DNA of 64,000 nucleotides from the NCBI GenBank assembly GCA_903847205.1, contig CAINDA010000049.1, forward strand, positions 1-64,000, read 5' to 3'. The DNA is from an uncultured Bacteroidota bacterium. Lineage in GTDB: Bacteria; Bacteroidota; Bacteroidia; 2-12-FULL-35-15. Under the pieces are notes generated by a model that worked only from the letters and a program-made list of their open reading frames with translations, was not told where the DNA came from and did no database searches. Shown here piece by piece: positions 17,349 through 54,674 of this stretch; position 1 is the first letter of the stretch, and the number at the start of each line of letters is the position of its first letter. The position numbers and the translations under genes were made by a program.

Positions 17349-17388
17349 ATAAACGGGTGTGATAAAAAATCATTTTCAATTATTGCAA

Positions 17389-18792
17389 ATGAAAAAATAC
17401 ATTCTATTTCTCAGTATAATCCTTACTTTGAACTTTGAACTTTACACCTTAAACTGTAAAGCGCAATACAGCAAGCTTTTTGATTTCGACAGCATAAATG
17501 GGTACGCTCCTTCCGGCTCTGTTGTTTACGATGGAACTTACCTTTACGGAATGACGCAGTACGGCGGAACAAGCGGAGAGGGAGTAATCTTTAAAATAAA
17601 GCCGGATGGAACAAGCTATTCTAAACTGCTTGATTTTACAGGCATAAACGGGAGCAGCCCTGTCGGTGATATTTATTATGACGGAACATTTTTGTATGGA
17701 ATGACCCAGAGAGGCGGTTTACACGACAGCGGAACAGTATTTAAAATAATGCGGGATGGAACAGGCTATTCCAAACTGCTTGATTTTGGGGGCATAAACG
17801 GGAATAATCCTTTCGGCTCACTTATTTATGACGGAACATTTTTATATGGAATGACAGCCGTTGGGGGCATAAATAATACAGGAACTATTTTTAAAATTGA
17901 TCTTAATGGAAGCAGCTATTCTAAACTGCATGACTTTGATGTGCAGGGCGGAACAAACGGAAATAACCCGACAGGCTCGCTTATTTCTGACGGAACTTAT
18001 TTGTACGGCATGGCAAAATACGGCGGAGCCAACGGTTTGGGAATGATTTTTAAAATAATGCTGGATGGCAGCTCATACACCAAGCTGTTTGATTTCAGCG
18101 GCACTGCATCCGGGAGCTGGCCGAACGGTTCGCTTATGACCGACGGAACATTTCTCTACGGCACAACATCTGAGGGCGGTTTAAACGATCAGGGAAGCAT
18201 CTTTAAAATTAAATACGACGGAACCAGCTATACCAAACTCCATGATTTTGCAGGCGGTGTATTGGGCAACTGGCCGAAAGCAAATCTTCTTTCAGCAGGC
18301 GGTCTGCTGTATGGAACGGCATCTGCAGGAGGTGTAAACAATATGGGTATCATCTTTAAATTAAAAACGGATGGTACCGAATACGCCGATCAGCTTGATT
18401 TTTCAGGTACTGCAAACGGAAGTACTCCTTTCGGATCTCTTATTTCGGACGGAACTTTTTTATACGGAATGACTATGGCAGGAGGAGCGAACAATATTGG
18501 TACAGTATTTAAATATGCTTTAGCGACAGGTATTGCAGAGAATAACGATGCAATAGATTTTGATGTTTATCCTAATCCGGGTAATGGACACCTCTCCCTA
18601 ACCCTCTCCACAGGAGAGGGGAATGTTAGTGTTTACAATGTTCTTGGAGAAAAAATTTATCATATTGATAATTCACAAATTAATAAATCTTCAAATTTTC
18701 AAATTGATTTAAGCAGCCAGCCTGCAGGCATTTATTTTATTCAGGTTATGGCAGGGCAGGGGATGGGAGTGAAAAAAATAATCATTCAGTAA
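17389..18792 (+). CDS. GloVer-repeat secreted protein, T9SS type A cargo (paralogue 1)
   Basis: 467 residues from ATG 17389, chosen because it opens directly into a signal peptide (MKKYILFLSIILTL...CKA/Q); an upstream GTG at 17359 adds ten polar residues. Seven ~50-residue repeats follow, each with KLxDF...NGxxPxGSLIxDGTFLYGMTxxGGxNxxGxxFKI, the GloVer (TIGR03803) pattern; seven blades suggest a beta-propeller. The last ~85 residues are a T9SS type A sorting domain (VYPNPGNGHLSLTLS...AGIYFIQV). Ligand unknown. The stretch LSLTLSTGEG is encoded by a palindromic repeat shared with the next gene. Confidence 0.88.
   Translation: MKKYILFLSIILTLNFELYTLNCKAQYSKLFDFDSINGYAPSGSVVYDGTYLYGMTQYGGTSGEGVIFKIKPDGTSYSKLLDFTGINGSSPVGDIYYDGTFLYGMTQRGGLHDSGTVFKIMRDGTGYSKLLDFGGINGNNPFGSLIYDGTFLYGMTAVGGINNTGTIFKIDLNGSSYSKLHDFDVQGGTNGNNPTGSLISDGTYLYGMAKYGGANGLGMIFKIMLDGSSYTKLFDFSGTASGSWPNGSLMTDGTFLYGTTSEGGLNDQGSIFKIKYDGTSYTKLHDFAGGVLGNWPKANLLSAGGLLYGTASAGGVNNMGIIFKLKTDGTEYADQLDFSGTANGSTPFGSLISDGTFLYGMTMAGGANNIGTVFKYALATGIAENNDAIDFDVYPNPGNGHLSLTLSTGEGNVSVYNVLGEKIYHIDNSQINKSSNFQIDLSSQPAGIYFIQVMAGQGMGVKKIIIQ
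18591..18622. repeat. Palindromic repeat within the T9SS domain coding region (copy 1)
   Basis: CCCTCTCC (18602-18609), ACA loop, GGAGAGGG (18613-18620), preceded by CCTCTCCCTAA. It encodes LSLTLSTGEG in frame. The same element occurs at the equivalent place in the paralogue. Confidence 0.75.
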
Positions 18793-18836
18793 TTTGCGAA
18801 ACATTGTTAGATAATCTAAATTGTGTATAGTCAGCC

Positions 18837-18888
18837 TGAGCCTGTCGAAGGCTGTGCGATGGCTTGTCAGCATACTTCGACAGGCTCA
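18837..18888. repeat. Dispersed inverted repeat element between GloVer paralogues
   Basis: Perfect 14-bp arms TGAGCCTGTCGAAG (18837-18850) and CTTCGACAGGCTCA (18875-18888); weaker pairing continues outside (TGTGTATAGTCA / TGACTCACACA). It has no ORF. It resembles the common CTTCGACAGGCTCAG palindromic elements of environmental bacteria. Confidence 0.8.
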
Positions 18889-18950
18889 GTATGACTCACA
18901 CACAAAACAGCAATTCAAAACCTCTATTCTAAGTATTTAAAAAAATATCA

Positions 18951-20357
18951 ATGAAAAAAACAACACTATTTCTTATAGCTGCCCTGACTTTAAATTTTGA
19001 ACTATTAACTTTAAACTCCAACGCTCAAAATACCAAACTCTTTGATTTCAGCACTGCTGAAGGAACTTCGCCTTATGGCTCACTTACTTCTGACGGAACT
19101 TTTTTATACGGCATGACTTATCTCGGCGGTGCAAACGACAGCGGTACTGTTTTTAAAGTTATGCCCGATGGAACAGGCTATTCCATACTATTAGATTTTG
19201 CAGGCGCTGCAAACGGGAAGCAGCCTAACGGCTCACTTATTTCTATAGGAAACTTTTTGTACGGCATGACAACTTACGGCGGCGCAGATAATCAGGGTAC
19301 TATTTTTAAAATAATGCATGATGGAACCGGGTATTCCAAACTGCTTGATTTTAACGGCGGAAACGGAAGCACTCCCTGGGGCTCTCTTGTTTCTGACGGA
19401 ACTTTTTTATATGGAATGACATTCGCCGGCGGAACAAATTATATGGGAGTAATTTTTAAAATAATGCCGGATGGAACAGGATACACCAAACTGCTTGATT
19501 TTACTGGCACTGCAAATGGAGGTACTCCCCGCGGTTCTCTTTTGTGCGATGGAACATTTTTATATGGGATGACACAGCATGGCGGTTTAAATAGTATCGG
19601 CTCAGTATTTAAAATTAAGCCTGATGGAACATCATATACCAAACTGTATGATTTTGCCACTGCCAATGGGCGCGAGCCTTTCGGCGATCTTATTTCTGAC
19701 GGCACATTTTTATACGGCATGACTGGCTTGGGCGGGATAAATAATAAAGGAACAATTTTTAAAATAGCGCAAGACGGTACAGGCTTTTCTAAACTGCTTG
19801 ATTTTGCAGGTGATTCAAACGGTGAATTACCTTACAGCTCTTTTCTTTTAAACGGAAGTTTTTTATTCGGCATGACAGTTTACGGCGGAGCAAATAATGA
19901 AGGAAGCATTTTTAAAATAAAACCCGACGGCACTTCCTTTACCAAACTGTTCGACTTTGATTCTATCAGCGGAGCAATGGGAAGCAATCCTGCTAGCAAT
20001 CTTATTACGGACGGCACCTTTTTTTATGGAATGACTTCTGCCGGAGGCTTAAACAATAAAGGAACAATATTTAAAGTAAACCCTGCAGCACTTGGTATTG
20101 CTGAGAATACTGATGCGATTGATTTTGATGTGTTTCCTAATCCGGGGAATGGAAACCTCTCCCTGACCCTCTCCACAGGAGAGGGGAACGTTAGTGTTTA
20201 CAATGTTCTTGGAGAAGAAGTTTATCATATTGATAATTCTCAAATTAATAAATCTTCAAATTTTCAAATTGATTTGAGCAGCCAGTCGGCTGGTGTTTAT
20301 TTTGTGCAGTTGGAAACAGGGCAGGGGATAGGGGTAAAGAAAATAATCATTCAATGA
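18951..20357 (+). CDS. GloVer-repeat secreted protein, T9SS type A cargo (paralogue 2)
   Basis: 468 residues. The signal peptide MKKTTLFLIAALTLNFELLT ends near SNA/Q. Seven GloVer repeats (DGTFLYGMTxxGG, GTxFKI cores) precede a C-terminal T9SS type A domain that is nearly identical to that of the preceding gene (DVFPNPGNG...SLTLSTGEG...VKKIIIQ), while the repeats are more diverged. The pair is a tandem duplication separated by a palindromic element. Like its neighbour it should be exported across the outer membrane and probably surface-attached; binding partner unknown. Confidence 0.88.
   Translation: MKKTTLFLIAALTLNFELLTLNSNAQNTKLFDFSTAEGTSPYGSLTSDGTFLYGMTYLGGANDSGTVFKVMPDGTGYSILLDFAGAANGKQPNGSLISIGNFLYGMTTYGGADNQGTIFKIMHDGTGYSKLLDFNGGNGSTPWGSLVSDGTFLYGMTFAGGTNYMGVIFKIMPDGTGYTKLLDFTGTANGGTPRGSLLCDGTFLYGMTQHGGLNSIGSVFKIKPDGTSYTKLYDFATANGREPFGDLISDGTFLYGMTGLGGINNKGTIFKIAQDGTGFSKLLDFAGDSNGELPYSSFLLNGSFLFGMTVYGGANNEGSIFKIKPDGTSFTKLFDFDSISGAMGSNPASNLITDGTFFYGMTSAGGLNNKGTIFKVNPAALGIAENTDAIDFDVFPNPGNGNLSLTLSTGEGNVSVYNVLGEEVYHIDNSQINKSSNFQIDLSSQSAGVYFVQLETGQGIGVKKIIIQ
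20157..20188. repeat. Palindromic repeat within the T9SS domain coding region (copy 2)
   Basis: CCCTCTCC (20167-20174), ACA loop, GGAGAGGG (20178-20185), again coding SLTLSTGEG. One base differs from copy 1 just upstream. Confidence 0.75.
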
Positions 20358-34036: not shown

Positions 34037-34196
34037 CATTAGTCCCCTTTTTTGAACGTATATTCAAAGATATTTACATCTGTCTTTACATTTGCTGAAA
34101 CCTCCTGCTTGTATATCTATCTTAAAAATAGTTTATATTCGCATATTGGTGATAAAAACTCCCAAGTCAGACAGTATAAATGTAAAAATTGCCCCG

Positions 34197-36518
34197 ATGA
34201 AATCAATTAAAAAGCAGTTTGCAATCCGAATTATTATGCTTTGCCTCCTGTCCCACATCTCAAACCCTGAATCTGTCTTCTCACAAAACAATAATGTCGG
34301 AATCGGCACGCTGACTCCGAAACCATCAGCTTTGCTGGATGTTGATGCAGCTCCTTCAAATAACAAAGGGATGCTTGTGCCCAGATTAACAGCTCTGCAA
34401 AGGCTTGCAATTTCTTCACCTGCAAATAGTTTATTAGTATTTGATACTGATTCGGCATGTTTCTTTTATTATAATTCCATAACATCAAACTGGAAATCCT
34501 TATGCCGCGGTAGTTCCGGAGGAATAGGATTAACAGGGAATACAGGTGCGGCAGGAATTACCGGTTCAACGGGCGCTGCAGGAACCGGCATAATCGGTAC
34601 AACCGGTAATACGGGCTCAACAGGCCCTGCGGGATTAAGTATTATTGGCACAACCGGTAATACCGGCCAAAATGGGGCAGCAGGGGTTATTGGTTTTACC
34701 GGCGCTTCCGGAGCAGCTGGAGTTGTTGGATCAACAGGAGCAATAGGAATCACCGGTTCAACAGGAGCCGATTTAGGAACACACTGGACAATAACCGGTA
34801 ATGCCGGCACAATAGACGGCACCAATTTTCTTGGAACAACTGATAACGTTCCGTTTAACATAAGGGTAAATAATCAAACGGCAGGAAGAATAGAAAACAA
34901 TATTGCGACCGCTAATACTTTTTTGGGTTTCCAAGCAGGTAATTCCAATGCAGGAGCCGGAAATACAGCGCATGGTTATCAGGCTCTTTTTAGCAATTCA
35001 TCGGGAACACAAAATACAGCAGTCGGCTATCAGGCTGGTTATTCAAATACTTCAGCAGGTACAAACGGAGGTGCTGTTGCAATAGGGTATCAGGCTCTTT
35101 ATTCAAATTCCGTATGGAACAATAACACTGCTGTAGGTTACAAAGCACTCTACTCTTTAACTACCGGCGCAAATACTGCAATAGGTTCAAAAGCTTTGAA
35201 TGCTTGTATTCAGTGTACTGGAAATACAGCATTAGGAATTAATGCTCTTCTCTTCACCGATCAGGGCTATTACAATACAGGTACCGGATTAGATGCTCTT
35301 GTGTATAATACTACAGGTTCTGACAATACAGCCAATGGCTATTTCTGTTTGTTAAATAATACAACAGGAAACAACAATGTTGGTTTAGGTGAAAATGCAG
35401 GTCATTTTAATGCAGCCGGCAGCGGTAATGTATTTCTCGGTTACAGGGCGGGTTATAATGAAACAGGTTCAAATAAACTTTATATAGCCAATGACAGCAC
35501 AAATCCTCCCTTAATTTTTGGAGATTTTTCATTAGGTAAGGTAGGTATTGGCACTATTACCCCGGCTGCAAAGCTTGAAATACAAGGTGCTGTAAAAATT
35601 GTGGATGGAACTCAAGGAGCCGGCAAAGTATTTACTTCTGATGCCAGCGGTTTGGGAAGCTGGCAGCCATCGGGCGCCGGATGGCTTACCACTGGAAATA
35701 CAGGAACAACGGCGGGCACAAATTATATTGGAACTAATGATGTACAAGATTTTGTTCTAAAAACGAGTGCAGTAATTAATACTCCGCTTGAACGATTGAG
35801 AGTACTTGCATCCAATGGCAATATTGGTATTGGAACTCCTGCGCCCGCAGCGCAGATGCATTTATGGGGATCAAACGGGGTGGAAATGAGACTTACAGGA
35901 GATGTTGAAACTCCCTCCACAATTAGATTTACGGGAGGCGGAGGAAATGTAACTGAAGGTTTTGTAATCAATTATACAAATGGGGGCGATACGTATTTTG
36001 ATAATGTTTATGTCGGGCCTTTACAAACTAACCCTGCAATCAGATTTAGGACAAACACATTCGGAACGCCGATAGATGCATTGACGATAGCTTATAATGG
36101 CAATGTAGGAATTGGCACTACAGCGCCTTCAGAGGCACTTCAAATAGTCGGCAATATTTGTTATTCCGGCTCAGTCGTGGCATGCTCTGATTTCCGCTAT
36201 AAACAAAACATTACACCATTAACAAGTTCGCTTTCAAATCTATTAAAGATTCAAGGTGTAAATTATTTTTGGCGTGTTGATGAGTTTCCTCTGAATAAAT
36301 TTAACAAGGAAAAACAAATTGGTTTCATTGCCCAAGACCTTGAAAAAATTTATCCTGAAGTTGTATTGACAGATAAGGAGGGATATAAATCAGTTGATTA
36401 TTCGCGTCTGACGCCTATTCTGGTAGAGGCAATCAAAGAACAGCAGAAGATGATTGACAGTCAGAAATTACTGATTGAAAAAATAGAGAAGGAAGTAGAA
36501 ATACTGAAGAAAAAATAA
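34197..36518 (+). CDS. Collagen-stalk fibre protein with S74 chaperone tip (fibre 1)
   Basis: 773 residues from ATG 34197, chosen because it starts a signal peptide ending at VFS/Q; the frame is open further upstream. Order: conserved N-terminal module (~31-105, [20 protein letters not shown]...[19 protein letters not shown]); collagen-like Gly-X-Thr triplets (~105-191); linker [13 protein letters not shown]; YadA-head-like repeats (NTAxGYxAL, ~225-425); a beta region with GNVGIGT segments; and a C-terminal peptidase S74 domain (~660-750, FRYKQNITPL...IGFIAQDLEKIYPEVV...YSRLTPILVEAIKE) plus coiled coil. S74 domains trimerise fibres and cut themselves off. Probably a trimeric exported fibre; anchoring is unknown since no T9SS domain is visible. 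Confidence 0.88.
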   Translation: MKSIKKQFAIRIIMLCLLSHISNPESVFSQNNNVGIGTLTPKPSALLDVDAAPSNNKGMLVPRLTALQRLAISSPANSLLVFDTDSACFFYYNSITSNWKSLCRGSSGGIGLTGNTGAAGITGSTGAAGTGIIGTTGNTGSTGPAGLSIIGTTGNTGQNGAAGVIGFTGASGAAGVVGSTGAIGITGSTGADLGTHWTITGNAGTIDGTNFLGTTDNVPFNIRVNNQTAGRIENNIATANTFLGFQAGNSNAGAGNTAHGYQALFSNSSGTQNTAVGYQAGYSNTSAGTNGGAVAIGYQALYSNSVWNNNTAVGYKALYSLTTGANTAIGSKALNACIQCTGNTALGINALLFTDQGYYNTGTGLDALVYNTTGSDNTANGYFCLLNNTTGNNNVGLGENAGHFNAAGSGNVFLGYRAGYNETGSNKLYIANDSTNPPLIFGDFSLGKVGIGTITPAAKLEIQGAVKIVDGTQGAGKVFTSDASGLGSWQPSGAGWLTTGNTGTTAGTNYIGTNDVQDFVLKTSAVINTPLERLRVLASNGNIGIGTPAPAAQMHLWGSNGVEMRLTGDVETPSTIRFTGGGGNVTEGFVINYTNGGDTYFDNVYVGPLQTNPAIRFRTNTFGTPIDALTIAYNGNVGIGTTAPSEALQIVGNICYSGSVVACSDFRYKQNITPLTSSLSNLLKIQGVNYFWRVDEFPLNKFNKEKQIGFIAQDLEKIYPEVVLTDKEGYKSVDYSRLTPILVEAIKEQQKMIDSQKLLIEKIEKEVEILKKK

Positions 36519-36572: not shown

Positions 36573-41435
<4,863 letters not shown>

Positions 41436-41847: not shown

Positions 41848-44217
41848 ATGACCGATACACTAAAAAAAACAGATGTTGAAATTGCCGGATTATCAGGGCA
41901 GGTAAAACAAATTTCACAAACCACTTATAAAGCCTCTCTAAAAAAAGGCATAATTGTTCAGGGTAAAATACAGGTCGAATATTCATCGAGTAATACTAAC
42001 ACTATAATATCTTATAATGAAAAAGGAGCCAAAACACAGGAGCAGCTTTTCGGTTTGGATGGATATTATATTAACACCTATAATGAAAGAGGGCTGCAGA
42101 CCAAATCAGTTCTTTATTATAAGGATGGTAAATTAAATCGGACCACAATTTTATCATATAATAAATATGACAAGCTGCTCGAATATTGTATGCGTGATGC
42201 TGATGGAATTTTACAATACAGAACCGAAAACAAATACGATGATCAGGGAAAAGAACTCGAATCTTATTCTTATCATGGAAAAGATGAGATTGTATATAGT
42301 AAAAAAATTACCACATACAATCCGCAGGGGCTCCATCTTTCAACCATAGAATACAAACAAGACGGCAGCATCAATTATAAATACCTGCATACCTACGATG
42401 ATCAGGGAAAAGAGATAGAGGATATTTGGGAATATGCTGATAAAAAAATGCAGGATTACTGCCGAAAAGGTACCAAAAAATATAATGAACAAGGCGATTG
42501 CATTGAAAACAATTACTATAACTACGATGGGAGTTTAAAATTCAGCTCTACCTATGCACACAAATATAACGAGCTTGGTCAATGTATAGAAACTACTAAT
42601 TATAATGACGGGCGTTTAGGAGGTACCACTTTCCATAAATACGATGATCAGGGAAAAAAAATAATGCCGGTTCATATTCCTAATTCTCAAGTGAAGAATC
42701 CCCATGAAACAGAGGAATTTGAATATGATACACAAGGCAACTGGATTAAAAAAACTGTTATTTACAACAAAATACCAGTCAATATATATAGACGCGAAAT
42801 AATATATTATACTATTAATGAGGCATTGGTCAAAGGCAATTTGGCATTAGACAGTGACTCAATAATAAATGATCCACTTAAAGGACCAGCAACAAATGAC
42901 CTCATTCACCCAATTACCGCTGATCCAGCAAATATAACAAACATCAAAACTATAACTATGGAAGATTCGGACGAAAACAATGAACAGGAATCAAACCTTA
43001 CTGCCCAGCAGACTCAATGGCTTTCAGAAACCTTAGTCAACGGTATATTTCCGATCGTGCGCTATTATGCTGCAGTCAATAAAGAACTCCCTTCAGAGTA
43101 TGTGCGTACTTCTCTGGATGTCGAAGTCTTTGCCCTTCTTCATGAACTCCAGGAAACTATGGAAGCGAAAATAATTCATTCATATAGCAGCGAATATGCG
43201 GATAACGGCAAAAAAATGATTCGCTATACCCTTGTATTTCCAAACAAAGGCTATATCCTGGAAGCAATTCAAATACAATCCCTGGATGCAGAACAATACG
43301 AAATGTCTGATTTCATTGAAGACAAGTCCAATTGCAATGACGACGGCTGCGTACACGTCAGTCAGCTCAATATTTTATCGCCCAATGAGGCTTCCGGCAA
43401 ACGCGATAAGTACGGTTTCGAAGAAGACCTGCAGAATTGTATAGACAAATGCACCCTCAAAAAAATAAAAATACCTGAGAAGCCCATGATTAACATGATA
43501 GAAGTAACAACTAACGGTTATGTCATGAGAGAACATGCAGTTGATGATGATTTCGAAATAAGAGACTTAGATATTAATTACGGCTTTGGTTTCGCCAAGT
43601 TTCATGATGAACTCATGCAGCGGTTCAATACCAGCAGCAAAGGGTTGGTACTTTTCCACGGCCTGCCGGGTACAGGCAAAACCTATTACATACGCCATCT
43701 GCTGAAAAAAATGGCTTCCGGTAATAAAGTCGTTATTTATATGCCGCCAAACATGGTAGATCATTTGGTAGAACCAGCATTCATGACATTTATTTCAAAC
43801 GCAGTTTCCCAATGGAATGAAGATGAACAATTCTGCGTCCTCTTAATCGAAGATGCAGAACCCCTGCTTGCCAAACGTCAGGAAGGAATACGTATACAAG
43901 GTGTTTCCAATCTGCTCAACATGACAGACGGCCTCCTGAATGATATGCTCAATATGCAGATCATCTGCACCTTTAACGTAGATCTGAAAAAATTAGACAG
44001 CGCCCTTCTTCGTCCCGGCCGCCTCCTTGCCCGAAAAGAGTTTAAAGCATTAAGCGAATTAGACTCCAACATATTAGCACAGCGTTTGGGAATAAAACAC
44101 CATTTTAAAAAAGGAGCAACCTTAAGTGAAATCTATTCCATGTTAGCCGATAAAGGCACTCTCATTCACGATGTAGAACCCGATCGCGATGCTTCCAAAG
44201 CCATTGATGATTTATAA
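41848..44217 (+). CDS. YD/RHS-like repeat protein fused to AAA+ ATPase
   Basis: 789 residues, no signal peptide, so probably cytoplasmic. Residues ~40-330 hold about a dozen YD-like repeats (TYNERGLQTKSVLYYKDGKL, KYDDQGKELESYSYHGKDE and similar). A linker and a ~200-residue alpha/beta region follow. Residues ~570-760 form an AAA+ module: Walker A GLPGTGKT at 605-612, Walker B VLLIED at 664-669, sensor-1-like ICTFNVD, and LLRPGR with the likely arginine finger. AAA+ proteins remodel or unfold partners. YD repeats usually belong to surface or toxin proteins, so this fusion is unusual. It stands amid secreted fibre genes and may be cotranscribed with fibres 3-8 (84-bp gap). Confidence 0.82.
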   Translation: MTDTLKKTDVEIAGLSGQVKQISQTTYKASLKKGIIVQGKIQVEYSSSNTNTIISYNEKGAKTQEQLFGLDGYYINTYNERGLQTKSVLYYKDGKLNRTTILSYNKYDKLLEYCMRDADGILQYRTENKYDDQGKELESYSYHGKDEIVYSKKITTYNPQGLHLSTIEYKQDGSINYKYLHTYDDQGKEIEDIWEYADKKMQDYCRKGTKKYNEQGDCIENNYYNYDGSLKFSSTYAHKYNELGQCIETTNYNDGRLGGTTFHKYDDQGKKIMPVHIPNSQVKNPHETEEFEYDTQGNWIKKTVIYNKIPVNIYRREIIYYTINEALVKGNLALDSDSIINDPLKGPATNDLIHPITADPANITNIKTITMEDSDENNEQESNLTAQQTQWLSETLVNGIFPIVRYYAAVNKELPSEYVRTSLDVEVFALLHELQETMEAKIIHSYSSEYADNGKKMIRYTLVFPNKGYILEAIQIQSLDAEQYEMSDFIEDKSNCNDDGCVHVSQLNILSPNEASGKRDKYGFEEDLQNCIDKCTLKKIKIPEKPMINMIEVTTNGYVMREHAVDDDFEIRDLDINYGFGFAKFHDELMQRFNTSSKGLVLFHGLPGTGKTYYIRHLLKKMASGNKVVIYMPPNMVDHLVEPAFMTFISNAVSQWNEDEQFCVLLIEDAEPLLAKRQEGIRIQGVSNLLNMTDGLLNDMLNMQIICTFNVDLKKLDSALLRPGRLLARKEFKALSELDSNILAQRLGIKHHFKKGATLSEIYSMLADKGTLIHDVEPDRDASKAIDDL

Positions 44218-44301: not shown

Positions 44302-45849
44302 ATGGCGGCTCTGAAAAAAAATTTAAATTTTGCAATTTGCAGTCCTTGCCCAATTGTCAATTGTCAATTATCAATTTCCTTTTGTCTATTGCCGATTGCC
44401 TTTTGCCTAATGCTGGTCAATTGCCTATTGCCCGTTTCTTGTTTCTCCCAAAACAATAACGTCGGTATCGGCACACTGAGTCCTAAACCTTCCGCTTTGC
44501 TTGATGTTGACGCAAGTCCTGCCAACAATAAAGGAGTACTGGTTCCCCGCATCACTGCATTGCAGAGGCTTGCAATCCCCGCACCCGCAAATAGCCTGCT
44601 GGTATTTGATACTGATTCAGCCTGTTTCTTCTATTGGAATGCAATAAACTCAGCTTGGAAATCATTATGTAATCCGGGACCTATCGGTCCTTCCGGATTA
44701 AGAGGCAATACAGGTTCAAGCGGTATTATTGGCTCCACCGGCGCTCTTGGCATAACAGGTTCAACAGGCATCATTGGTTCAACCGGAGCATCAGGCATTA
44801 TTGGCGCAGCCGGCAATACCGGCTCCACAGGTTCTGGCGGCATAACAGGTTCAACAGGTATCATTGGGTCAACTGGAGCATCAGGCATTATCGGTGCCGT
44901 CGGAAATACCGGCTCCACCGGCGCTGTCGGCATAACTGGCTCAACAGGCATCATTGGTTCAACCGGTGCATCAGGTATAATCGGTTCAACAGGAAATACG
45001 GGTTCTGTCGGTACTACCGGTTCAACCGGTGCAGACCTAGGAACACACTGGACTATAACCGGAAATGCCGGAACTACAGCGGGGCCCAATTTTATTGGAA
45101 CAACAGATGCAGCTGATTTAGCCCTTGTAACCAACAATGCTGAAAATATGAGAGTAACTGCCACTGGTAATGTGGGTATTGGAACAATATCGCCGAACAG
45201 TTCAGCAAAGGTAGATATTGCAAGCACCTCGCAAGGTTTTGCTATGCCTCGTATGACAACCCAGCAGCGTTTGGCAATAGCAAGCCCAATGGATGGTCTG
45301 ATGGTATATGATACTGATTTGCAAGGCTATTATAATTATGGGGCAGTATCTGCACATTGGGATTGTGTAACCACTCCTGCCGGAAGCATTAATTATTTCG
45401 CTAATGCTGCTGCTCCCCGCGGCTATTTGGAATGCAACGGACAAAGCGTGAGCATCACAGTTTACCCTGAGCTGTTTGCTGCGATAGGTTACCTTTATGG
45501 CGGAGGCGGTGCTGTTTTTCAGGTACCCGATCTGCGTGGTGAGTTTTTGCGAAGTTTTGATGATGGCAGAGGTGTCGATGCCGGAAGGATTATTGGAAGC
45601 AGTCAAACTGATGCAGGAAGAAATGTAACCGGCGGTGTTAATTCATGTGAAGACGCTGCCGGCGGTACAGTCCTTTCCGGCGCTTTTACATCTTATTCAA
45701 GTCAATATACAATGTGCTGGTCAACCGGGTGCAATAACGGCACAATCGGCACAGCAGTACTTGATGCTTCCTCTGTATGGGGAGCACAGCATACAGCAAA
45801 TGAATTTCGTCCGCGAAACGTCGCATTATTACCTTGTATAAAATATTGA
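44302..45849 (+). CDS. Collagen-stalk fibre with tail-collar tip (fibre 3)
   Basis: 515 residues. The first 50 residues are an unusual long leader made of repeat-derived Cys/Leu/Pro-rich sequence (ending LPVSCFS/Q), then the shared N-terminal module (~51-125), collagen-like stalk (~124-243, [13 protein letters not shown] units), [13 protein letters not shown] linker, a second module-like segment ([20 protein letters not shown]...) and a phage tail-collar domain (~361-515: [60 protein letters not shown]) ending [11 protein letters not shown]. Collar domains form trimeric receptor-binding tips of phage fibres. The 5' two-thirds is nearly identical to fibres 4 and 6. Confidence 0.87.
44325..44440. 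repeat. Word-like repeat forming the leader of fibre 3
   Basis: Runs such as CAATTGTCAATTGTCAATTATC and TTGCCTATTGCCCGTTTC consist of TTGCC/ATTGTC words. A close relative occurs at 54742-54860 without a fibre gene behind it, and similar words (AAGCAATAAGCAAAGGGCAA) lie at 44220-44270. Confidence 0.7.
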
Positions 45850-45880: not shown

Positions 45881-47251
45881 ATGAAAAGTAAAAGTTTCAT
45901 TTCCGCAGTTGTTTTCATTCTTATAATACTTGCAGGATTAGGATCAGCAGTTTTAGCTCAAAACAATAACGTCGGCATAGGTACTCTAAGTCCTAAACCT
46001 TCGGCTTTGCTTGATATTGATGCAAGTCCTGCCAACAATAAAGGAGTACTGGTTCCCCGTATCACTGCATTGCAGAGGCTTGCAATCCCCGCACCTGCAA
46101 ATAGTCTGCTGGTATTTGATACTGATTCAGCCTGTTTCTTCTATTGGAATGCAATAAACTCAGTATGGAAATCATTATGTAATCCGGGACCTATCGGTAC
46201 CTCCGGATTGAGAGGCAATACAGGTTCAAGCGGTAATACAGGCTCCACCGGCGCTGTCGGCATAATAGGTTCAACAGGCATCATTGGTTCAACGGGAGCA
46301 GCAGGTCTTATTGGCACAACAGGAAATACAGGCTCCACCGGCAATGTCGGCATAACGGGTTCAACAGGCATCATAGGTTCAACCGGAGCATCAGGTATGA
46401 TCGGTTCAACGGGAAATACGGGTTCAGTCGGCACTACCGGTTCAACAGGTACAGACCTCGGAACACATTGGACTATAACCGGAAATGCCGGCACTACTGC
46501 TGGGCCGAATTTTATTGGAACTACAGATGCAACTGATTTAGCCATTGTAACCAACAATGCTGAAAATATGAGAGTAACCGTCTCTGGTAATGTTGGTATT
46601 GGAACAATAGCACCAAACAGTTCCGCAAAGGTAGATATAGCAAGTTCCTCTCAAGGTTTTGTTATGCCTCGTATGACAACCGCCCAGCGACTGGCAATAA
46701 CTGCCCCTATTGCAGGTCTTCAGGTATATGATACAAACTTAAAAGATTTCTATTATTTTAATGGTGTAAACTGGGATTGTGTCAGTGTCAGGGCAGGCAC
46801 AATAAATTATTTTGCAAATACTGCTGCACCTGTTGGTTATTTAGAATGCAACGGACAAAGTATTAGTACAGCCGTGTATCCCGAACTGTTTACTGCCATA
46901 AGTTATTTATACGGCGGCAGCGGAGCTGTGTTTAATGTGCCGGATTTAAGAGGTGAATTTGTGCGATGCTTCGATGATGGAAGAGGAGTGGATGCAGGAA
47001 GAATAATAGGGAGTTTTCAGCCGGCATCTACTCACAGAGAATTAGGCGGAACAGGCGGTGTTGGAACAATTAATGACTGGTGGTCGGATAGTAAAGCTAA
47101 TGTTATTTCTGATTTTATTTCAACTTCGGCCGTACCATATAATGGCGGGATGTTGAATAATGCGTATCCAAACAATCCTGCATCAGTTATGATTTACGAA
47201 TTTTCTCATCGTCCGCGAAACATAGCCTTGCTTCCTTGTATAAAATATTGA
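45881..47251 (+). CDS. Collagen-stalk fibre with tail-collar tip (fibre 4)
   Basis: 456 residues. Signal peptide [20 protein letters not shown]...AVLA/Q, shared module (~27-100), collagen-like stalk (~105-190), linker, a second module-like segment and a tail-collar tip (~305-456: [51 protein letters not shown]) ending [11 protein letters not shown]. 31 bp after fibre 3. The spacer and signal peptide are repeated almost exactly before fibres 5 and 7, so whole gene units including spacers were duplicated. The collar sequence after GRIIGS is unique, as expected for a specificity loop. Confidence 0.87.
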   Translation: MKSKSFISAVVFILIILAGLGSAVLAQNNNVGIGTLSPKPSALLDIDASPANNKGVLVPRITALQRLAIPAPANSLLVFDTDSACFFYWNAINSVWKSLCNPGPIGTSGLRGNTGSSGNTGSTGAVGIIGSTGIIGSTGAAGLIGTTGNTGSTGNVGITGSTGIIGSTGASGMIGSTGNTGSVGTTGSTGTDLGTHWTITGNAGTTAGPNFIGTTDATDLAIVTNNAENMRVTVSGNVGIGTIAPNSSAKVDIASSSQGFVMPRMTTAQRLAITAPIAGLQVYDTNLKDFYYFNGVNWDCVSVRAGTINYFANTAAPVGYLECNGQSISTAVYPELFTAISYLYGGSGAVFNVPDLRGEFVRCFDDGRGVDAGRIIGSFQPASTHRELGGTGGVGTINDWWSDSKANVISDFISTSAVPYNGGMLNNAYPNNPASVMIYEFSHRPRNIALLPCIKY

Positions 47252-47284: not shown

Positions 47285-48364
47285 ATGAAAAATAAAAGCT
47301 TCATTTCCTCCGTTTGTTTTATTATTATATGTCTCGCAGTATTAGGTGAAGCAGCCTTTGCTCAAAACAGCAACGTCGGCATTGGCACTGTCAGCCCTAA
47401 ACCTTCCGCTTTGCTGGATATTGATGCAAGCCCTGCCAACAATAAAGGAATTCTTATTCCGCGCTTGACGGCAATGCAGCGCCTTGCAATCTCTTCACCT
47501 GCTAATAGTTTATTGGTATTTGACACCGATTCGATGTGCTACCTCTTTTATAGAAGTCAAACAACATCCTGGATTTCACTTTGTAATGTTATTGGAACTA
47601 CAGGTTCTACTGGACGCACAGGCGCTGCTGGAGTATCTGGATCAACTGGCCCTATAGGGAATACAGGTGCTTACGGGGCGACCGGCGCAACAGGTGCAAA
47701 TGGAATAACAGGTGCTGGAGGGTCTTTAGGATCAACAGGGGCAGCCGGTGCAAATGGATTAACCGGGACTACAGGGGCTTTAGGATCAACTGGGTCAACA
47801 GGCGCTAATGGATTAACCGGGTCTACCGGGGCAGCGGGATCAACCGGGGCTGCCGGCGTTGTCGGCCCAACCGGCAATTCCAATCTGCCTGCAGGAATAA
47901 TAGTAATGTGGAGCGGAACAATTGCAAACATTCCTTCTGGATGGGCATTATGTGATGGGACTTTGGGTACTCCCAATTTATTAGATATGTTTATTTTAAG
48001 CGTAAGCACTGCAGAAAACCCGGGCGCTACAGGCGGAACCAATTCATATACGCTCAGCACAGCGCAGCTGCCTGCACATACACACACTGGAAGTACCAGT
48101 AATGACGGTGCTCATTTTCATACCAATGGCCCTAATTCCTCCGGAGTATTTTATTCTGATCCTCTGCCAGCTGAACTGAGTAATGGGCTGACAGCCGGCG
48201 GAGAATTTAACGATGCAGGAGCTTCGGGAATTTCCAGGGGAGGTTTTATGACATCTACTGCAGGTTTACATAATCATACTTTTACAACTGACCCTGCTGG
48301 ATCTGGTTCACCTATTGATAATCGTCCGGCTTTTTATAAACTCGCGTTTATAATGAAACTCTAG
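47285..48364 (+). CDS. Collagen-stalk fibre with HxH-type collar tip (fibre 5)
   Basis: 359 residues. Signal peptide ([20 protein letters not shown]...AFA/Q), shared module, collagen-like stalk (~105-198), then a different collar type (~201-359): [20 protein letters not shown] with [36 protein letters not shown] and the C-terminal [15 protein letters not shown]. The HTH, HFH and HNH triplets resemble metal-coordinating HxH motifs in T4 short and long tail-fibre tips. It lacks the second module-like segment of fibres 3, 4 and 6. 33 bp from fibre 4. Probably a trimeric surface fibre. Confidence 0.86.
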
Positions 48365-48489: not shown

Positions 48490-49929
48490 ATGCAGATTTT
48501 GAAAAATCAATTTCAATTACTTTTCTTCCTCTTTTTTTTAATTGCAGCATTCCCATTTACAAATTGTTTTGCTCAAAACAATAACGTCGGCATCGGCACA
48601 CTCAGCCCTAAACCATCGGCTCTGCTTGATGTTGATGCAAGTCCTGCCAACAATAAAGGAGTATTGGTTCCCCGTATCACTGCATTGCAGAGGCTTGCAA
48701 TCCCTGCACCTGCAAATAGCCTGCTGGTATTTGATACTGATTCAGCTTGTTTCTTCTATTGGAATGCAATAAACTCAGCTTGGAAATCATTATGTAATCC
48801 TGGACCTATCGGTCCTTCTGGATTAAGAGGCAATACAGGTTCAAGCGGTAATATTGGCTCCACCGGCGCTCTTGGAATAACAGGTTCAACAGGCATCATT
48901 GGTTCAACGGGAGCTTCAGGCATTATTGGTGCAGCCGGCAATACCGGCTCAACAGGTTCTGTTGGAATAAATGGTACAACAGGCATCATTGGTTCAACAG
49001 GAGCTTCAGGTGTTGTTGGTTCAACCGGAACTACAGGCTCTGTCGGTACTACTGGTTCAACAGGTGCAGACCTTGGAACACACTGGACTATAACCGGAAA
49101 TGCCGGAACTACAGCGGGTCCCAATTTTATTGGAACAACAGATGCAGCTGATTTAGCCCTTGTAACCAACAATGCTGAAAATATGAGAGTAACTGCTTCT
49201 GGTAACGTAGGTATTGGAACAATAGCACCGAACAATTCCGCAAAAGTAGATATTACCAGTACCTCCCAGGGTTTTGTTATGCCCCGCCTAACGAGTGTGC
49301 AGCGCAAGGCCATTGCCGGCCCTATTGAAGGCCTGCAGGTTTATGATACAGATTTAAAAGGATGTTATATTTATGATGGTACTAAATGGGATTGTGTGAG
49401 TGTACCCGCCGGCAGTATTGGATATTTTGCTAATATTACTCCCCCGAATGGTTATTTAGAATGCAATGGACAAGCCGTAAACCGTACTTTCTATGCAGAA
49501 TTATTCAATGCAGTAAGCACACTTTACGGAATTGGTGATGGAAGTACTACATTTAACCTGCCCGATCTTAGAGGAGAATTTGTGAGAGGGCTTGATGACG
49601 GGCTGGGTGTGGATAATGATGCTGCAAGAACAATCGGCAGCGCACAGCAAGGTACGGTTATGTGGTACGACAGCGACCCCATATTTACTGTATCAACTAT
49701 AAATATGACAGGAGGGGTAACAGATGCTGCTGCACGTAATTTTGCAGGGCTTGATAAAACGATTGAATCAAATTGGCCTAATGCTTATATTACATGGACA
49801 GGTGTTCCTAATTCTCTGCCTATTTCTACTAATGGGCCGGCCGTGCATGGCGGAGCATTGGGCGATTTTGGAGTTATTGGTACCAGCCGTCCCAGAAACA
49901 TAGCCTTGCTGCCTTGTATAAAATATTGA
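48490..49929 (+). CDS. Collagen-stalk fibre with tail-collar tip (fibre 6)
   Basis: 479 residues. Signal peptide [20 protein letters not shown]...CFA/Q, shared module, stalk (~106-193), [13 protein letters not shown] linker, second module-like segment ([20 protein letters not shown]) and a collar tip (~306-479: [57 protein letters not shown]) ending [11 protein letters not shown]. The 5' half is nearly identical in DNA to fibres 3 and 4, whereas the last ~110 residues are its own. The signal peptide differs from fibres 4, 5 and 7, so exported N-termini are also mixed. Confidence 0.87.
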
Positions 49930-49961: not shown

Positions 49962-52346
49962 ATGAAAAGTAAAAGCTTCATTTCCGCAGTCGGCCTCATT
50001 CTTATACTGCTTGCAGGGTCAGGATCAGCCCTCTTAGCTCAAAATAATAATGTCGGCATCGGCACACTCAGCCCTAAACCTTCTGCTTTGCTTGATATTG
50101 ATGCAGCTCCTTCAAATAACAAGGGGATGCTTGTGCCAAGATTAACTGCAGTACAAAGGCTCGCAATCCTTTCTCCCGCAAATAGCTTATTAGTATTTGA
50201 TACTGATTCTTCCTGCTTCTTTTATTATAATTCAATTACATCGAATTGGAAATCATTGTGCCGCAATGGTTCTGGGGGAATAGGATTAACAGGAAGTACT
50301 GGTTCTATCGGCTTTACAGGAAGCACAGGCTCCTCCGGTGCTATAGGCAGTACAGGTTCAAATGGCGCTGCAGGTAATACTGGTGCTGCCGGAACTATAG
50401 GATCCACAGGCAATACCGGAACTATGGGGGCAGCTGGATCTACAGGCATAATCGGCGCTTCCGGAAATACAGGTGATAATGGGTTTACAGGTTCTACTGG
50501 TAATACCGGCTCCATTGGAATGACAGGCTCAACAGGCTCAACGGGAAATGCCGGCCTGATGGGCTCAACGGGTTTTACCGGAAGTATCGGAGTAACAGGT
50601 TCGACAGGGGCAGACCTTTTGACTCACTGGACAATAACCGGCAATGCCGGCACTGCTGCCGGCACTAATTTCATTGGTACTACCGACAGTGTTGATTGGG
50701 TGGTAAAAACAAATAACCTTGAGAGAATGCGGGTATTAGCCGCAGGAAATGTGGGTATAGGAACTTCAAACCCTGCTGGCGCCGAATTAAACGTGACTTT
50801 GAATAATAATACTACCGCAGCCCCGATATTAACTTTAAATAGGGCAGGAACTGGTTCAACCGGATGGATGAGTGTTTTTTCAGGAGCTGCAATTGGAGAT
50901 TGGAATCCGCTTACAAATACTGGCGACAAGTCTATAATTTTTACTAATGACAGCGACACAGCTCTTAACACCAGCGGATTATTTATCGGCCCCTGGAGCT
51001 CAAGGCCGAATGGAATTAAAATTATGGAAAATGGTAATTTAGGAATTGGGTTTGTAAATCCAGCTGCTAAATTAGATGTCAACGGCACGTTCAGAGTCAC
51101 TGCATCAAATGCTGGCAGTGAAGTCACATATAATACACTTTCAGCAAATCAAACTTTTGGCCATGTTTTTCAGGATAACGGAGCTGCACAGTGGCAGCTA
51201 TTCAAAAATAATTCTAACCAATTTGGTATTTATGATTATGCGAGAGTTTCAAATGTTTTCACAATTTCGCCAAATGGAAATATGTCATTAATGCCTGCTG
51301 GAGGCTTTGTCGGTATAGGTACACCGGCGCCATCAGTTAAACTTGAAGTGTCGCAGGGAAATTTTAAAGTAACAAATAATGCATATTCTCTTATATCCGC
51401 CCAAAGTTATCACTCTGCTGATCATCCTGCTTTTATCGGCTTACGCGGTCAGGGAACGGAAGCACTTCCAGCCTATCCTTTAGCAGGAGATGTGTTATCC
51501 TCTTTTATCGGACGCGATGTAATTGATGGACTCACCAATTCCATCCATTATGGCGGGGGCAGTATGTATATTAATGCTAACGAAAATTTCTCAGCAGCCA
51601 ACAAAGGAACCTATATAGACTTTACAACTACTGCTAATGGAACCAATATCGAATCAGAAAAAGTCAGAATCGACCACAATGGAAATGTGGGAATTGGGAC
51701 TATAGCTCCCGGGGCAAAGTTACATATAACAGACAATCAAAATGAAAGGACATTACATGTGGAGCATAATTTTACTGGTTTAATAAATACTGATGCTGCA
51801 TTCATTGGAGGTATTGATGCCAGTTTCAGCAGTACAGGCTTATTTGTTCTGCAGAAAGATAATTTGGGTTTTGGGTCGGCTGGAACAAATTTAATAAATG
51901 TAGTAAGCAACTCGGTTTCCAAAATGTTAGTAAATGGCTTGGGGTATGTTGGTATTGGAAATCCAACTCCGGCATTTTTACTTGATGTGAGCGGCACCAC
52001 AGCCTGCGCCGGAAATGTCTGGACATCCGATCTCAGAAAGAAAAAAAACATAGAAACACTTTCATTAAACGGAATTGACATTTTAACTAAGCTGCGACCA
52101 GTAAGTTTTGAATGGAAGGAAGTATTGGATGACGGAATGAAAGGAACACAAATGGGATTTATTGCTCAGGAGCTGGAACGCCAGCTTCCTTCAATTGTGG
52201 TTACTGAAAATAATACCGATAAAACCAAAGGAGTAAAGTACATTGAACTTTTACCTATACTTGTAAAAGCAATGCAGGACCAGCAAAAAGAAATTGAAGA
52301 ATTAAAACTGAAAATTGAACAATTAGAAACTGACAAGAAAAAATGA
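49962..52346 (+). CDS. Collagen-stalk fibre with S74 chaperone tip (fibre 7)
   Basis: 794 residues. Signal peptide like fibre 4 ([20 protein letters not shown]...LLA/Q), shared module in the version found in fibre 1 ([19 protein letters not shown]), stalk (~104-216), linker, a long beta-rich region with repeated GNVGIGT segments, and a C-terminal S74 chaperone (~680-780: [59 protein letters not shown]) plus a coiled coil. Its 3' end overlaps the start of fibre 8 by 4 bp (ATGA), indicating translational coupling. Predicted trimeric exported fibre with self-cleaving C-terminus; mode of attachment unknown. Confidence 0.88.
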
Positions 52347-54250
52347 TAAACTCTAAAGTTTCAGCAAATAAAAACCATCAGCGAAATAATCAATTTTTGA
52401 AAAGCCCCGACCAGTTTGCTCCTGCTTTTTTATTCTTATTTGATTTCTTTTATCCTGGGTTTAAACGTTTACTTTTTATTGGAGTGTTCGGTTTATTCCT
52501 GGTTCCAGCCGTCTTAGCCCAAAACAATAACGTAGGCATAGGAACACTCAGCCCTAAACCATCTGCTTTGCTGGATGTTGATGCAAGCCCGGCAAACAAC
52601 AAAGGAGTATTGGTTCCCCGTATGACTGCATTACAGCGTCTGGCAATCCCATCTCCTGCAAATAGTTTATTGGTATTTGATACAGATTCAGCCTGCTTCT
52701 TTTATTGGAATAACTTAAGCACAAGCTGGAAATCATTATGTTCAGGAGCTGCAGGCCCTGCAGGAAATATTGGTTCAACCGGCTATACAGGTGTAACAGG
52801 TGCTGTGGGCATTACAGGAATAACGGGCCAAATTGGCTCCACTGGAGCTTCTGGTAATTTAGGTTCAACCGGCTATACCGGAGTTACCGGCGCAGTAGGA
52901 ATAACAGGTTCAACAGGAATCATTGGTTCAACCGGTACTGCAGGTATTATCGGTTCAACCGGAAATACCGGCTCAATAGGTACTACTGGTGCAACAGGTG
53001 CAGACCTCGGAACACACTGGACAATAAACGGTAATGCAGGCACAAACGCAGGCGCAAATTTTGTTGGAACAACCGATGCAAATGATTTGGCTGTAAGAAC
53101 TAACAATACAGAAAAAATGAGGGTAACTTCTTCAGGTAATGTTGGAATTGGAATTGCCTCACCGGATGCATCAGCATTACTTGATTTAAATTCGGGCACA
53201 TCAAACAATCAAGGTTTGTTAATCCCCCGTTTAACTACAGCCCAGCGCAATGCAATAGTTTCGCCTGCCTTGAGTTTATTTATTTTTAACACCACTACCA
53301 ATTGTTTTGAAGCCTATGTTGGCGGGGCCTGGTATTCCATTTCATGCCCGGCAGCCTGCGCTCCTCCTGCTGCTCCGGGTGTTGTAACATGCAGTACTTG
53401 TGTCACATCCGGACAAACCGGTGTAACGTATTCTATAACTGCTGTATCAGGTGCAACTTTATACACATGGTCTGTTCCTCCAGGTTCTGTTGTAACATCA
53501 GGGCAGGGAACTGTTTCTATAACTATAACTGCTGGAAGTACGTCCGGCAATATAAGTGTTACTGCCGGAAATACCTGCGGAACAAGTCCTGCAGCAACAT
53601 TAGCCGCAGTGATTGTATATAAAAGCTGTCAGGAAATTTTAGCGGCAAACCCTTCAAGTGCCGACGGGGTTTATACCATTGATCCGGATGGATCCGGACC
53701 TTTGCCATGTATGCAGTGTAACTGCGATATGACAACAGACGGCGGCGGATGGACCTTAGTTCTGAATTATCTTCATCAGGGTGGCACAAATCCGGCATTA
53801 AGTGTACTTACAAACTCATTGCCGCTTTTGGGAAGCAATGTATTGGGAACAGATGAAAGCGGCACTCTATTCTGGGGACATGCCAATAGCAGCTTAATGA
53901 ACGCCATAAATTTTACTTCAATTCGGTTTTATGGAAAAACTGCTGCCCACCCCAGAGTGATACATTTCAAAACCATAAATGCTCCAACTATAAGCTATTT
54001 TAAAACGGGAACCGGTACCAGCTCAGGTATCCAATCAACTTTTACAACACTAGCCGGACATACAGCTTTTCTGCCTGCCAGTGCTAATTTGTTTTTCGCA
54101 AATCAAGGAAATTTCAGCATGACGGAGTTTCCATATTACCTGGGAACAACTTATCATTGGGGTATTCAAGGCCAGGGATCTAGATGGGAAGTGGATGATT
54201 TTCTTAATAATTTCAGTCAAAATACCTTTCATCAAATTTCGGTCAGGTGA
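52343..54250 (+). CDS. Collagen-stalk fibre with fibrinogen-like tip (fibre 8)
   Basis: 635 residues, beginning at ATG 52343 within the stop of fibre 7. A long leader ends in a signal peptide ([19 protein letters not shown], ~residue 60); then shared module, collagen-like stalk (~134-220), linker, a second module-like segment, an Ig/PKD-like domain (~335-425, [20 protein letters not shown]) and a C-terminal fibrinogen-related domain (~428-635) with [33 protein letters not shown] and aromatic-rich remainder. Collagen plus fibrinogen-like is the architecture of animal ficolins and tenascin-like lectins, so a carbohydrate-binding tip is a reasonable inference. Last gene of the island. Confidence 0.86.
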
Positions 54251-54392
54251 TAAGGAAGTTGGAAGAATCGGATCAATAAAAGCTAAACTGATATGCTTAC
54301 AATACACTTTATACTTTTTTTGCAAGGAGCTGCTAAGCCTTATCTGAAGTAAAACAAGGTTTAGGTTTTCGTTCTTTGAACTGCACACACGT
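54251..54392. other. Spacer after the fibre operon
   Basis: No gene or clear terminator hairpin. GCTGCTAAGCCTTAT and AAACAAGGTTTAGG are the only notable local pairings. Confidence 0.3.
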
Positions 54393-54674
54393 GATTCCCT
54401 GTAAAGGATGGCGTGTAACGGAACCGTTTTATGTGATCCCCTGCAAAGGATGGCGTGTAACGGAGTCGTTTTACATGATCCCCTGCAAAGGATGGCGTGT
54501 AACGGAACCGTTTTATGTGATTCCCTGTAAAGGATGACGTGTAACGGAACCGTTTTATGTGATCCTCTGTAAAGGATGACGTGTGTACAACCGTACAGAT
54601 GTGATTCCCTGTATAGAATGACGTGTGTACAACCGTACAGACCAGATCCCCTGCAAAGGATGAGGTGTGTACAC
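54393..54674 (+). repeat. 42-bp tandem repeat array, right flank of the fibre island
   Basis: Units begin at 54393, 54435, 54477, 54519, 54561, 54603 and 54645, exactly 42 bp apart, each starting GATYCCCTGYAAAGGATG. Units 1-4 carry GTAACGGAACCGTTTTATGT; units 5-7 switch to GTGTACAACCGTACAGA. The left array (33939-34036) has the latter type. The first three and a half units are open in one frame (IPCKGWRVTEPFYV per unit). Confidence 0.92.

Follow-up and report, generated by a model that had tools for sequence, protein, structure and literature searches.

In ficolins, a collagen stalk lies N-terminal to a fibrinogen-related head within a single chain; a short neck joins the two, and the molecules are oligomers of trimers. 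Both GGGWT proteins (an NCBIfam family) and collagen-like adhesins are already known from bacteria. Among the titles listed by searches of open-access literature, none concerns a bacterial protein uniting a collagen and a fibrinogen-like domain, and the word 'fibrinogen' is absent from the main text of a review of prokaryotic collagen-like proteins (PMC8968730). Here we describe a gene that encodes such a combination, hereafter the fibre gene, in a 64,000-nucleotide stretch of DNA (the window: contig CAINDA010000049.1, positions 1 to 64,000, assembly GCA_903847205.1) from an uncultured Bacteroidota bacterium. A sequence-only reading of this DNA had proposed for the gene product a ficolin-like architecture and, by analogy, a lectin function.

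We lean slightly towards the view that the product is secreted and forms an adhesin-like fibre, probably a homotrimer, whose binding head is a divergent fibrinogen-like domain. The protein would be exported by means of a signal peptide, and its chain would trimerise through the collagen stalk (about 28 triplets) and the modules into a homotrimer. The stalk, followed by the second VGIG module and the PKD spacer, would present three fibrinogen-like heads, as in ficolins. This tip would be the binding head for an extracellular ligand, either a glycan or a protein on the surface of another cell or in the matrix, and its ligand contact would not use the S1 acetyl site in the known form. The paralogues of the array keep the base and the stalk and vary at the distal end.

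Stalk, tip and predicted fold of the fibre protein

The order put forward by the sequence-only reading, a Gly-X-Thr stalk followed by a fibrinogen-like tip, is right, and the collagen run is uninterrupted; the tip does not, however, stand directly behind the stalk, about 205 residues (the second VGIG module and a PKD_6 domain) lying between them (Table 1). The Pfam Collagen profile (PF01391) matches the protein with 46.3 bits, for a cut-off of 27.2. The run comprises 28 triplets once trimmed and 29 in the run scan, with Thr at position Y in 16 of the 28, a single Pro and no charged residue; given the Gly content of the same protein outside the run, the chance of 28 consecutive triplets is about 1e-29. 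The stalk therefore has the features by which bacterial collagen-like proteins are recognized, i.e. uninterrupted Gly-X-Y triplets with Thr favoured at Y (31.6% Thr at Y for all bacteria according to a review, PMC8968730). Upstream of the base module, residues 1–59 probably contain a signal peptide, as judged from the hydropathy of the translated sequence; the true start is uncertain, with TTG at residue 19 and GTG at residue 48 as alternative starts. Library scans of the fibre protein gave no Pfam or NCBIfam match for the base module (residues 61–133).

The tip consists of 210 residues, from residue 426–428 to residue 635 (adding 425 to a tip residue number gives the fibre-protein number). 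That it opens like a fibrinogen-related domain, as had been read from the sequence, is borne out by the family model NF040941 (GGGWT_bact), which covers the tip start over 46 of 46 positions with 74.7 bits (cut-off 30), and the tip contains the N-terminal signature of the superfamily, C...C-D-M-x-T-x-GGGW. The hidden Markov model search with Fibrinogen_C that had been suggested gave a more limited answer: the match lies at the threshold (21.7 bits for the whole protein and 23.4 when the tip is scanned by itself, against a cut-off of 22), but involves only the first 49 of the 221 profile positions. The Pfam scan of the fibre protein matched no family within residues 474–635.

A scan of bacterial and archaeal genomes matched at least 556 stretches; relatives are encoded by 488 of them, of which we retained the best 80. 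Forty-one of the 80 (L062–L102) were inspected by open reading frame (ORF), and 32 were aligned with the fibre tip in an alignment of 33 rows, A3; it omits L078, whose ORF is broken, L090 and L093, which have an unmatched first part and an extended end, the five partial matches L091, L097, L099, L100 and L101, and L098, at only 30% identity. The A3 rows are 43–73% identical to the fibre tip and, because the 32 relatives align along them, the roughly 160 residues past the GGGWT segment are conserved as well. In Pfam scans, Fibrinogen_C matched all 33 rows and COLFI 25, the other matches being to three families only, in one row each (best E 0.018). Against chains of the PDB, matches of the A3 profile were confined to roughly its first 52 positions, one chance row apart. 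In a set of 39 tip proteins, NF040941 matched every member and Fibrinogen_C 35 (E ≤0.001).

The AlphaFold2 model of the tip, computed with A3, has a mean predicted local distance difference test score (pLDDT) of 94.2 and a predicted template-modelling score of 0.93. When 293 chains were compared with this model by VIA-align, 147 gave Z ≥8, models without a clear match typically standing at Z 7 to 8. The best 50 chains (Z 9.4–10.1) include heads of angiopoietin, FIBCD1, tachylectin 5A (TL5A), tenascin and ficolin: Ang1 (9ivu) superposes with Z 10.1 and 4.0 Å over 172 of the 210 residues, FIBCD1 with Z 10.1 and 4.1 Å over 170, TL5A with Z 10.0 and 4.1 Å over 171, and L-ficolin (2j0g) with Z 9.8 and 3.5 Å over 155. 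The alignments reach across model residues 1–210, so that the model points to a fibrinogen-related fold, albeit a distant one, over the whole domain. The structure prediction and superposition on ficolin by which the sequence-only reading asked to be judged thus turned out in its favour, at the level of a predicted structure: a fibrinogen fold is present in the model, and the similarity to ficolin is distant. Foldseek returned XEEL, intelectin, fibrinogen and ficolin among its best 50 matches. In BFVD, the closest model is a Pyramimonas orientalis virus protein (template-modelling (TM) score 0.75, 33% identity), followed by cyanophage proteins.

The proposed recognition of acetylated sugars fared differently. 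In FIBCD1, the S1 site is built on the Cys401–Cys414 disulfide with its cis peptide and lies next to a calcium site, with equivalents in TL5A and the ficolins (PMC3908420); L-ficolin, according to the same source, binds acetylated structures mainly via S3 or S2. The cysteines of the fibre tip are confined to positions 429, 456, 459 and 461, and the second Cys–Cys disulfide of FIBCD1, TL5A and the ficolins is not present in its sequence. Since no Cys lies past residue 461, S1 as described in that source cannot exist in the fibre tip, which leaves acetylated-sugar recognition unsupported; what is excluded is S1 in this known form, not acetyl binding in general. Among the A3 rows, 21 of 33 have no Cys after C36 and the other 12 have one to four; the calcium pattern D-x-D-x-[DNS] shortly before a Cys occurs in none of the 33, most rows lacking the required Cys. 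Other positions are strictly kept: C4, C36, D37, M38, the DGGGWT core, R103, R113, H148 and D193 are invariant in all 33 rows, and H53, E80, H88, H111, W181, W190, E191 and H205 are kept in at least 90% of them. Such residues outside S1 may mark another binding site. The tip is a 210-residue domain with no full-length model in the scanned libraries, whose conserved residues may indicate a site unlike the known acetyl site.

Occurrence of the tip and of its combination with collagen

The tip occurs patchily in bacteria. The A3 profile matched 18 of 395 genomes of the class (13 of 196 genera; 17 of 339 good-quality genomes), some over the GGGWT part only. NF040941 matched two of 395 genomes of the phylum, the genome studied here being the only one above the cut-off, and the single tip sequence used as query retrieved, among 296 genomes of the phylum, this genome only; given the 18 class genomes found by the profile, the single-sequence search was too insensitive. 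Within the best 80 of the 488 relatives, we found Flavobacterium, Chryseobacterium, Kordia, Winogradskyella and Nonlabens, as well as bins titled Deltaproteobacteria, Myxococcales, Bdellovibrionales and Lentisphaeria. Seven Vibrio and Pseudomonas plasmid records match the tip up to residue 60.

A tree of the 33 tips requires four changes for Bacteroidota, at least two of them forced by well-supported branches. We do not conclude from this that the tip was transferred between phyla: bins may carry foreign contigs, and more than one change on a tree is no proof. Two very similar tips, from a Deltaproteobacteria bin (L082:7667–8299) and a Lentisphaeria bin (L085:3279–3911), are adjacent on very short branches; their likeness reflects either a recent transfer or a misbinned contig.

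The combination of collagen and tip is much narrower in its distribution. Two of the best 80 genome loci (L062 and L097) have a collagen run of at least 8 triplets that is read in the same frame as the GGGW ORF; L096, which is cut at its start, lies outside this judgement. Of the 20 loci from the class search, nine have a visible ORF, and the only one with such a run is the fibre gene itself. A paralogue on contig C9 of the same genome is one further gene with collagen and tip. Our data indicate that L062 and L096 belong to genome G301 of the same genus and L097 to G316. Among the best 80 of 488 relatives and the other loci examined, the combination was therefore seen only in this genus. Three of 36 genomes of the genus, and none of 14 control genomes, contain GGGWT segments: the genome studied here (in the fibre gene and in its paralogue on C9), G301 with two segments, and G316 also with two, of which one lies in a long protein that has no base module.

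The base module is far more widespread, being present in 31 of the 36 genomes, frequently in tandem, and arrays resembling that of the window are found again within the genus; our genome has 24 matches, second modules counted. In the window and 32 further stretches (20 of this genome and 12 of other genomes), 61 ORFs match the local base-module profile, weak and partial matches included. Collagen proteins of the genome reach 2467 and 4715 amino acids.

Identity is distributed unevenly along these chains. Compared with the C9 paralogue, the fibre protein is 90% identical in the base, 87% in the second module, 62% in the PKD domain and 40% in the tip; for L062, the corresponding figures are 77%, 74%, 58% and 72%, and the fibre tip is 72–73% identical to the two G301 tips. 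This pattern is suggestive of recombination between stalk and tip. The formal tests, performed on seven sequences, nevertheless leave this undecided against fast divergence of the C9-type tip: for the second module plus PKD domain, the approximately unbiased test rejected none of the three topologies (p 0.115, 0.674 and 0.507), and for the tip it rejected only the topology joining the fibre gene with C9. Because fast divergence of the C9-type tip (a long branch) explains the data equally well, we do not claim a tip exchange.

The array of paralogous fibres and competing explanations

The fibre gene is the last of eight paralogues in the window that share the base module and a collagen stalk (Table 1), an array that the sequence-only reading had not mentioned. 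The ends of the eight proteins differ: two carry an S74 chaperone domain, three a phage tail collar domain above the Pfam cut-off and one below it, one consists of NTAxG repeats, and the fibre protein has the fibrinogen-like tip. By contrast with these ends, ten base modules of the genome, eight from the window and one each from C9 and C37, are 66–100% identical at the protein level. The gaps between the last six genes are 31, 33, 125, 32 and −4 bases, the start codon of the fibre gene sharing 4 bases with the stop of the preceding paralogue (ATGA); such short gaps suggest that these six genes are co-transcribed as one operon. Scans of the window for promoters (42 promoter-like sites, against 24.2 with a standard deviation of 4.8 in shuffles, the excess being on both strands) and for terminators (4 terminator-like sites, against 11.0 in shuffles) singled out no transcription start or end.

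Table 1. Features of the fibre gene and its array, in window positions
Feature	Positions	Strand	Residues	Basis or remark
Fibre gene	52343..54250	+	635 aa	open ORF
N-terminal extension and hydrophobic stretch ending VPAVLA	52343..52519	+	1–59	hydropathy, start codons
Base module NNNVGIGT...WKSLC	52523..52741	+	61–133	in all 8 array genes
Collagen-like Gly-X-Thr-rich stalk	52745..53005	+	135–221	triplet scan, PF01391
Linker and second VGIG module	53006..53362	+	222–340	base-module profile
PKD_6 domain	53363..53605	+	341–421	PF19408, 78.8 bits, E 3.9e-22
GGGWT_bact segment, first part of tip	53624..53761	+	428–473	NF040941
Remaining fibrinogen-like tip	53762..54247	+	474–635	aligned in 32 relatives, predicted fold
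Array paralogue	34092..36518	+		collagen stalk, S74 chaperone end
Array paralogue	36573..41435	+	1620 aa	about 106 collagen triplets, many NTAxG repeats
Array paralogue	44302..45849	+		phage tail collar end
Array paralogue	45881..47251	+		phage tail collar end
Array paralogue	47285..48364	+		collar match under cut-off, phage tail-fibre-like end
Array paralogue	48490..49929	+		phage tail collar end
Array paralogue	49962..52346	+		S74 chaperone end

In phages, collar and S74 domains form trimers. That the fibre is a trimer too is probable by analogy, above all with collagen and with the phage collagen fibre EPclA discussed below. A broader proposal, which we put forward only tentatively and would not expect to hold in full, is that this lineage keeps a set of trimeric fibres in which the base before the collagen stalk is constant and the end is exchangeable, being of the phage-tail-fibre type in some and of a bacterial fibrinogen-like lectin type in one, as a counterpart of the ficolin design recognising several surfaces, and that turnover of the tips, by divergence or replacement, is much faster than that of the base. 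Such an array, alike at the base and different at the ends, would lend itself naturally to finding out which end recognises what.

The neighbours of the phage-tail-fibre type raise the question of whether the array is a remnant of phage tail fibres, domesticated fibres or the fibres of phage-like particles, the tip being a phage receptor-binding tip, an explanation that we consider very improbable. The collar and S74 ends do match phage tail-fibre families (phrog_523, E 4e-41), and relatives of part of the tip are encoded at 42 viral-contig loci and in 19 phage records. Scanned by itself, the tip matches two PHROG families without an assigned function, phrog_10681 (E 2.3e-9) and phrog_1325, and a BFVD model named phage tail fiber-like protein was matched with E 2.6e-3. 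The fibre protein as a whole matches 19 PHROG families, nearly all via the collagen region. However, the phage records match at most residues 3–102 and span at most 48% of the tip, and at none of the 42 viral loci does the GGGW ORF have an in-frame collagen run of at least 8 triplets. Moreover, a hydrophobic stretch precedes the base module in every array gene (by eye; hydropathy was computed for the fibre gene), something that cytoplasmically assembled phage fibres do not need, and the flanking ORFs look like ordinary chromosomal genes on inspection, no systematic phage scan having been made. We also regard as unlikely, if less so, a purely structural role in which the tip would be a cap driving the trimerisation of the collagen chains, like the C-propeptide of fibrillar collagens, with no outside ligand. 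Collagen helices usually have a trimerising end, such as PfC in the phage collagen EPclA (PMC3368898), and the first 40 tip residues resemble COLFI in 25 of the 33 tips (E up to 0.1). Yet Pfam Collagen (E up to 0.001) is found in only 4 of the 39 tip proteins; since the other 35 have no such match, the tip cannot serve mainly collagen folding. In addition, paralogues with the same base and stalk end in other domains, and a PKD domain and a second module stand between stalk and tip.

Several observations weigh against the adhesin-like fibre that we favour. Secretion, trimerisation, surface display and ligand binding are steps that we infer for the fibre. Foldseek gave TM scores of 0.32–0.48 (E 1.2e-5 to 3.7e-4, best 50 rows), below the 0.5 usual for a confident fold match, which is why we speak of a distant member of the superfamily, and its first four rows are intelectin-type lectins, not ficolins. 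The monomer model of residues 222–425 has a mean pLDDT of 70.8, with the first 63 residues below 50; it is confident only from part of the second VGIG module through the PKD domain. The type IX sorting tail TIGR04183 is found in none of the eight stalk proteins of the window, although the genome holds at least 150 (a figure based on 150 of 310 candidates scored, with 2 of 14 control genomes also matching). The fibre protein itself gave no match to this type A model at E up to 1. In favour of export, TIGR04183 does occur in 5 of the 39 tip proteins scanned, and its presence makes the tip an exported domain in those five. Lastly, Pfam found Collagen alone in 8 of 10 further stalk proteins, so that binding ends cannot be claimed for the stalk family at large.

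These eight proteins, which have no known domain but Collagen, would suit another possibility, namely that the fibre is a passive component of a matrix or coat (a biofilm or a cell-surface layer) whose tip only aids packing, as would the abundance of collagen-like genes: the window and the 20 further stretches of this genome contain 30 ORFs of at least 200 amino acids with a run of at least 8 Gly triplets. We find this quite unlikely, because the two tip genes of the genome are 90% identical in the base but only 40% in the tip, a pattern that recognition fits better than packing.

Other elements were observed in and around the array. A 789-amino-acid protein encoded inside it (41848–44217) combines YD-like repeats, noted by eye in the first half, with an AAA ATPase domain in the second. 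A 42-bp tandem repeat array (54391–54673), whose unit contains the 10-base palindrome ACGGAACCGT, starts 140 bases past the stop of the fibre gene; the sole other copies in the genome, as found with one 86-base query, are at C37:88306–88656, about 160 bases upstream of a collagen-stalk gene. Elsewhere in the window (17359–20357), two adjacent GloVer tandem-repeat genes have type IX sorting tails and DNA units of about 150 bp.

Comparison with described systems

The stalk is like those of Scl1, Scl2 and the Legionella protein Lcl in having Gly-X-Y triplets with a Thr-rich Y position, and it gives partial matches to the Scl and Lcl models; it differs in scoring far under their cut-offs (for Lcl, 45.1 bits where 500 are required). 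Bacteroidota are among the holders of Lcl, whose C-terminal domain is C-type-lectin-like (PMC11162425), whereas the end of the fibre protein is fibrinogen-like. EPclA, a collagen fibre of an Escherichia coli prophage measured as a trimer (PMC3368898), joins collagen to phage-fibre ends, much as the neighbours of the fibre gene end in collar and S74 domains; the fibre protein differs from it by its hydrophobic N-terminus, another base module and its fibrinogen-like end.

For the tip, the NF040941 model spans only 46 residues, whereas about 160 more are conserved here in 32 relatives. Intelectins and XEEL are another point of likeness: the intelectin-type chain 4wmo tops the Foldseek list (E 1.2e-5), and the best profile match reaches E 1e-9 over the first 49 residues. 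The sequence match, however, concerns only 49 of 210 profile positions, and intelectin chains have about 280 residues. The intelectin-type fold is absent from the best 50 VIA rows, an absence that excludes nothing.

The closest parallel in design is with the ficolins: in the fibre protein too, a collagen stalk precedes a head predicted to be fibrinogen-related in one chain. The differences lie in the connection, a short neck in ficolins and about 205 residues with a VGIG module and a PKD_6 domain here (residues 221–426), in the tip, which is only 13–16% identical to ficolin chains in the VIA rows and lacks the cysteines of the second disulfide bearing S1, and in the uncharged stalk. The sequence-only reading had left the choice between convergent and acquired lectin fibres; of the two, a ficolin-like order assembled locally looks likelier than a transferred ficolin gene, PDB chains being the only animal sequences compared. 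Indeed, the stalk base is shared by local paralogues and, at the loci examined, the whole tip occurs in other bacteria without collagen, so that the two parts seem to have come together within this lineage. Should the tip bind glycans or surface proteins, the stalk-and-head design of animal innate immunity would also exist in a bacterium, which would have built it by joining the stalk of its own fibres to a head domain of bacterial type.

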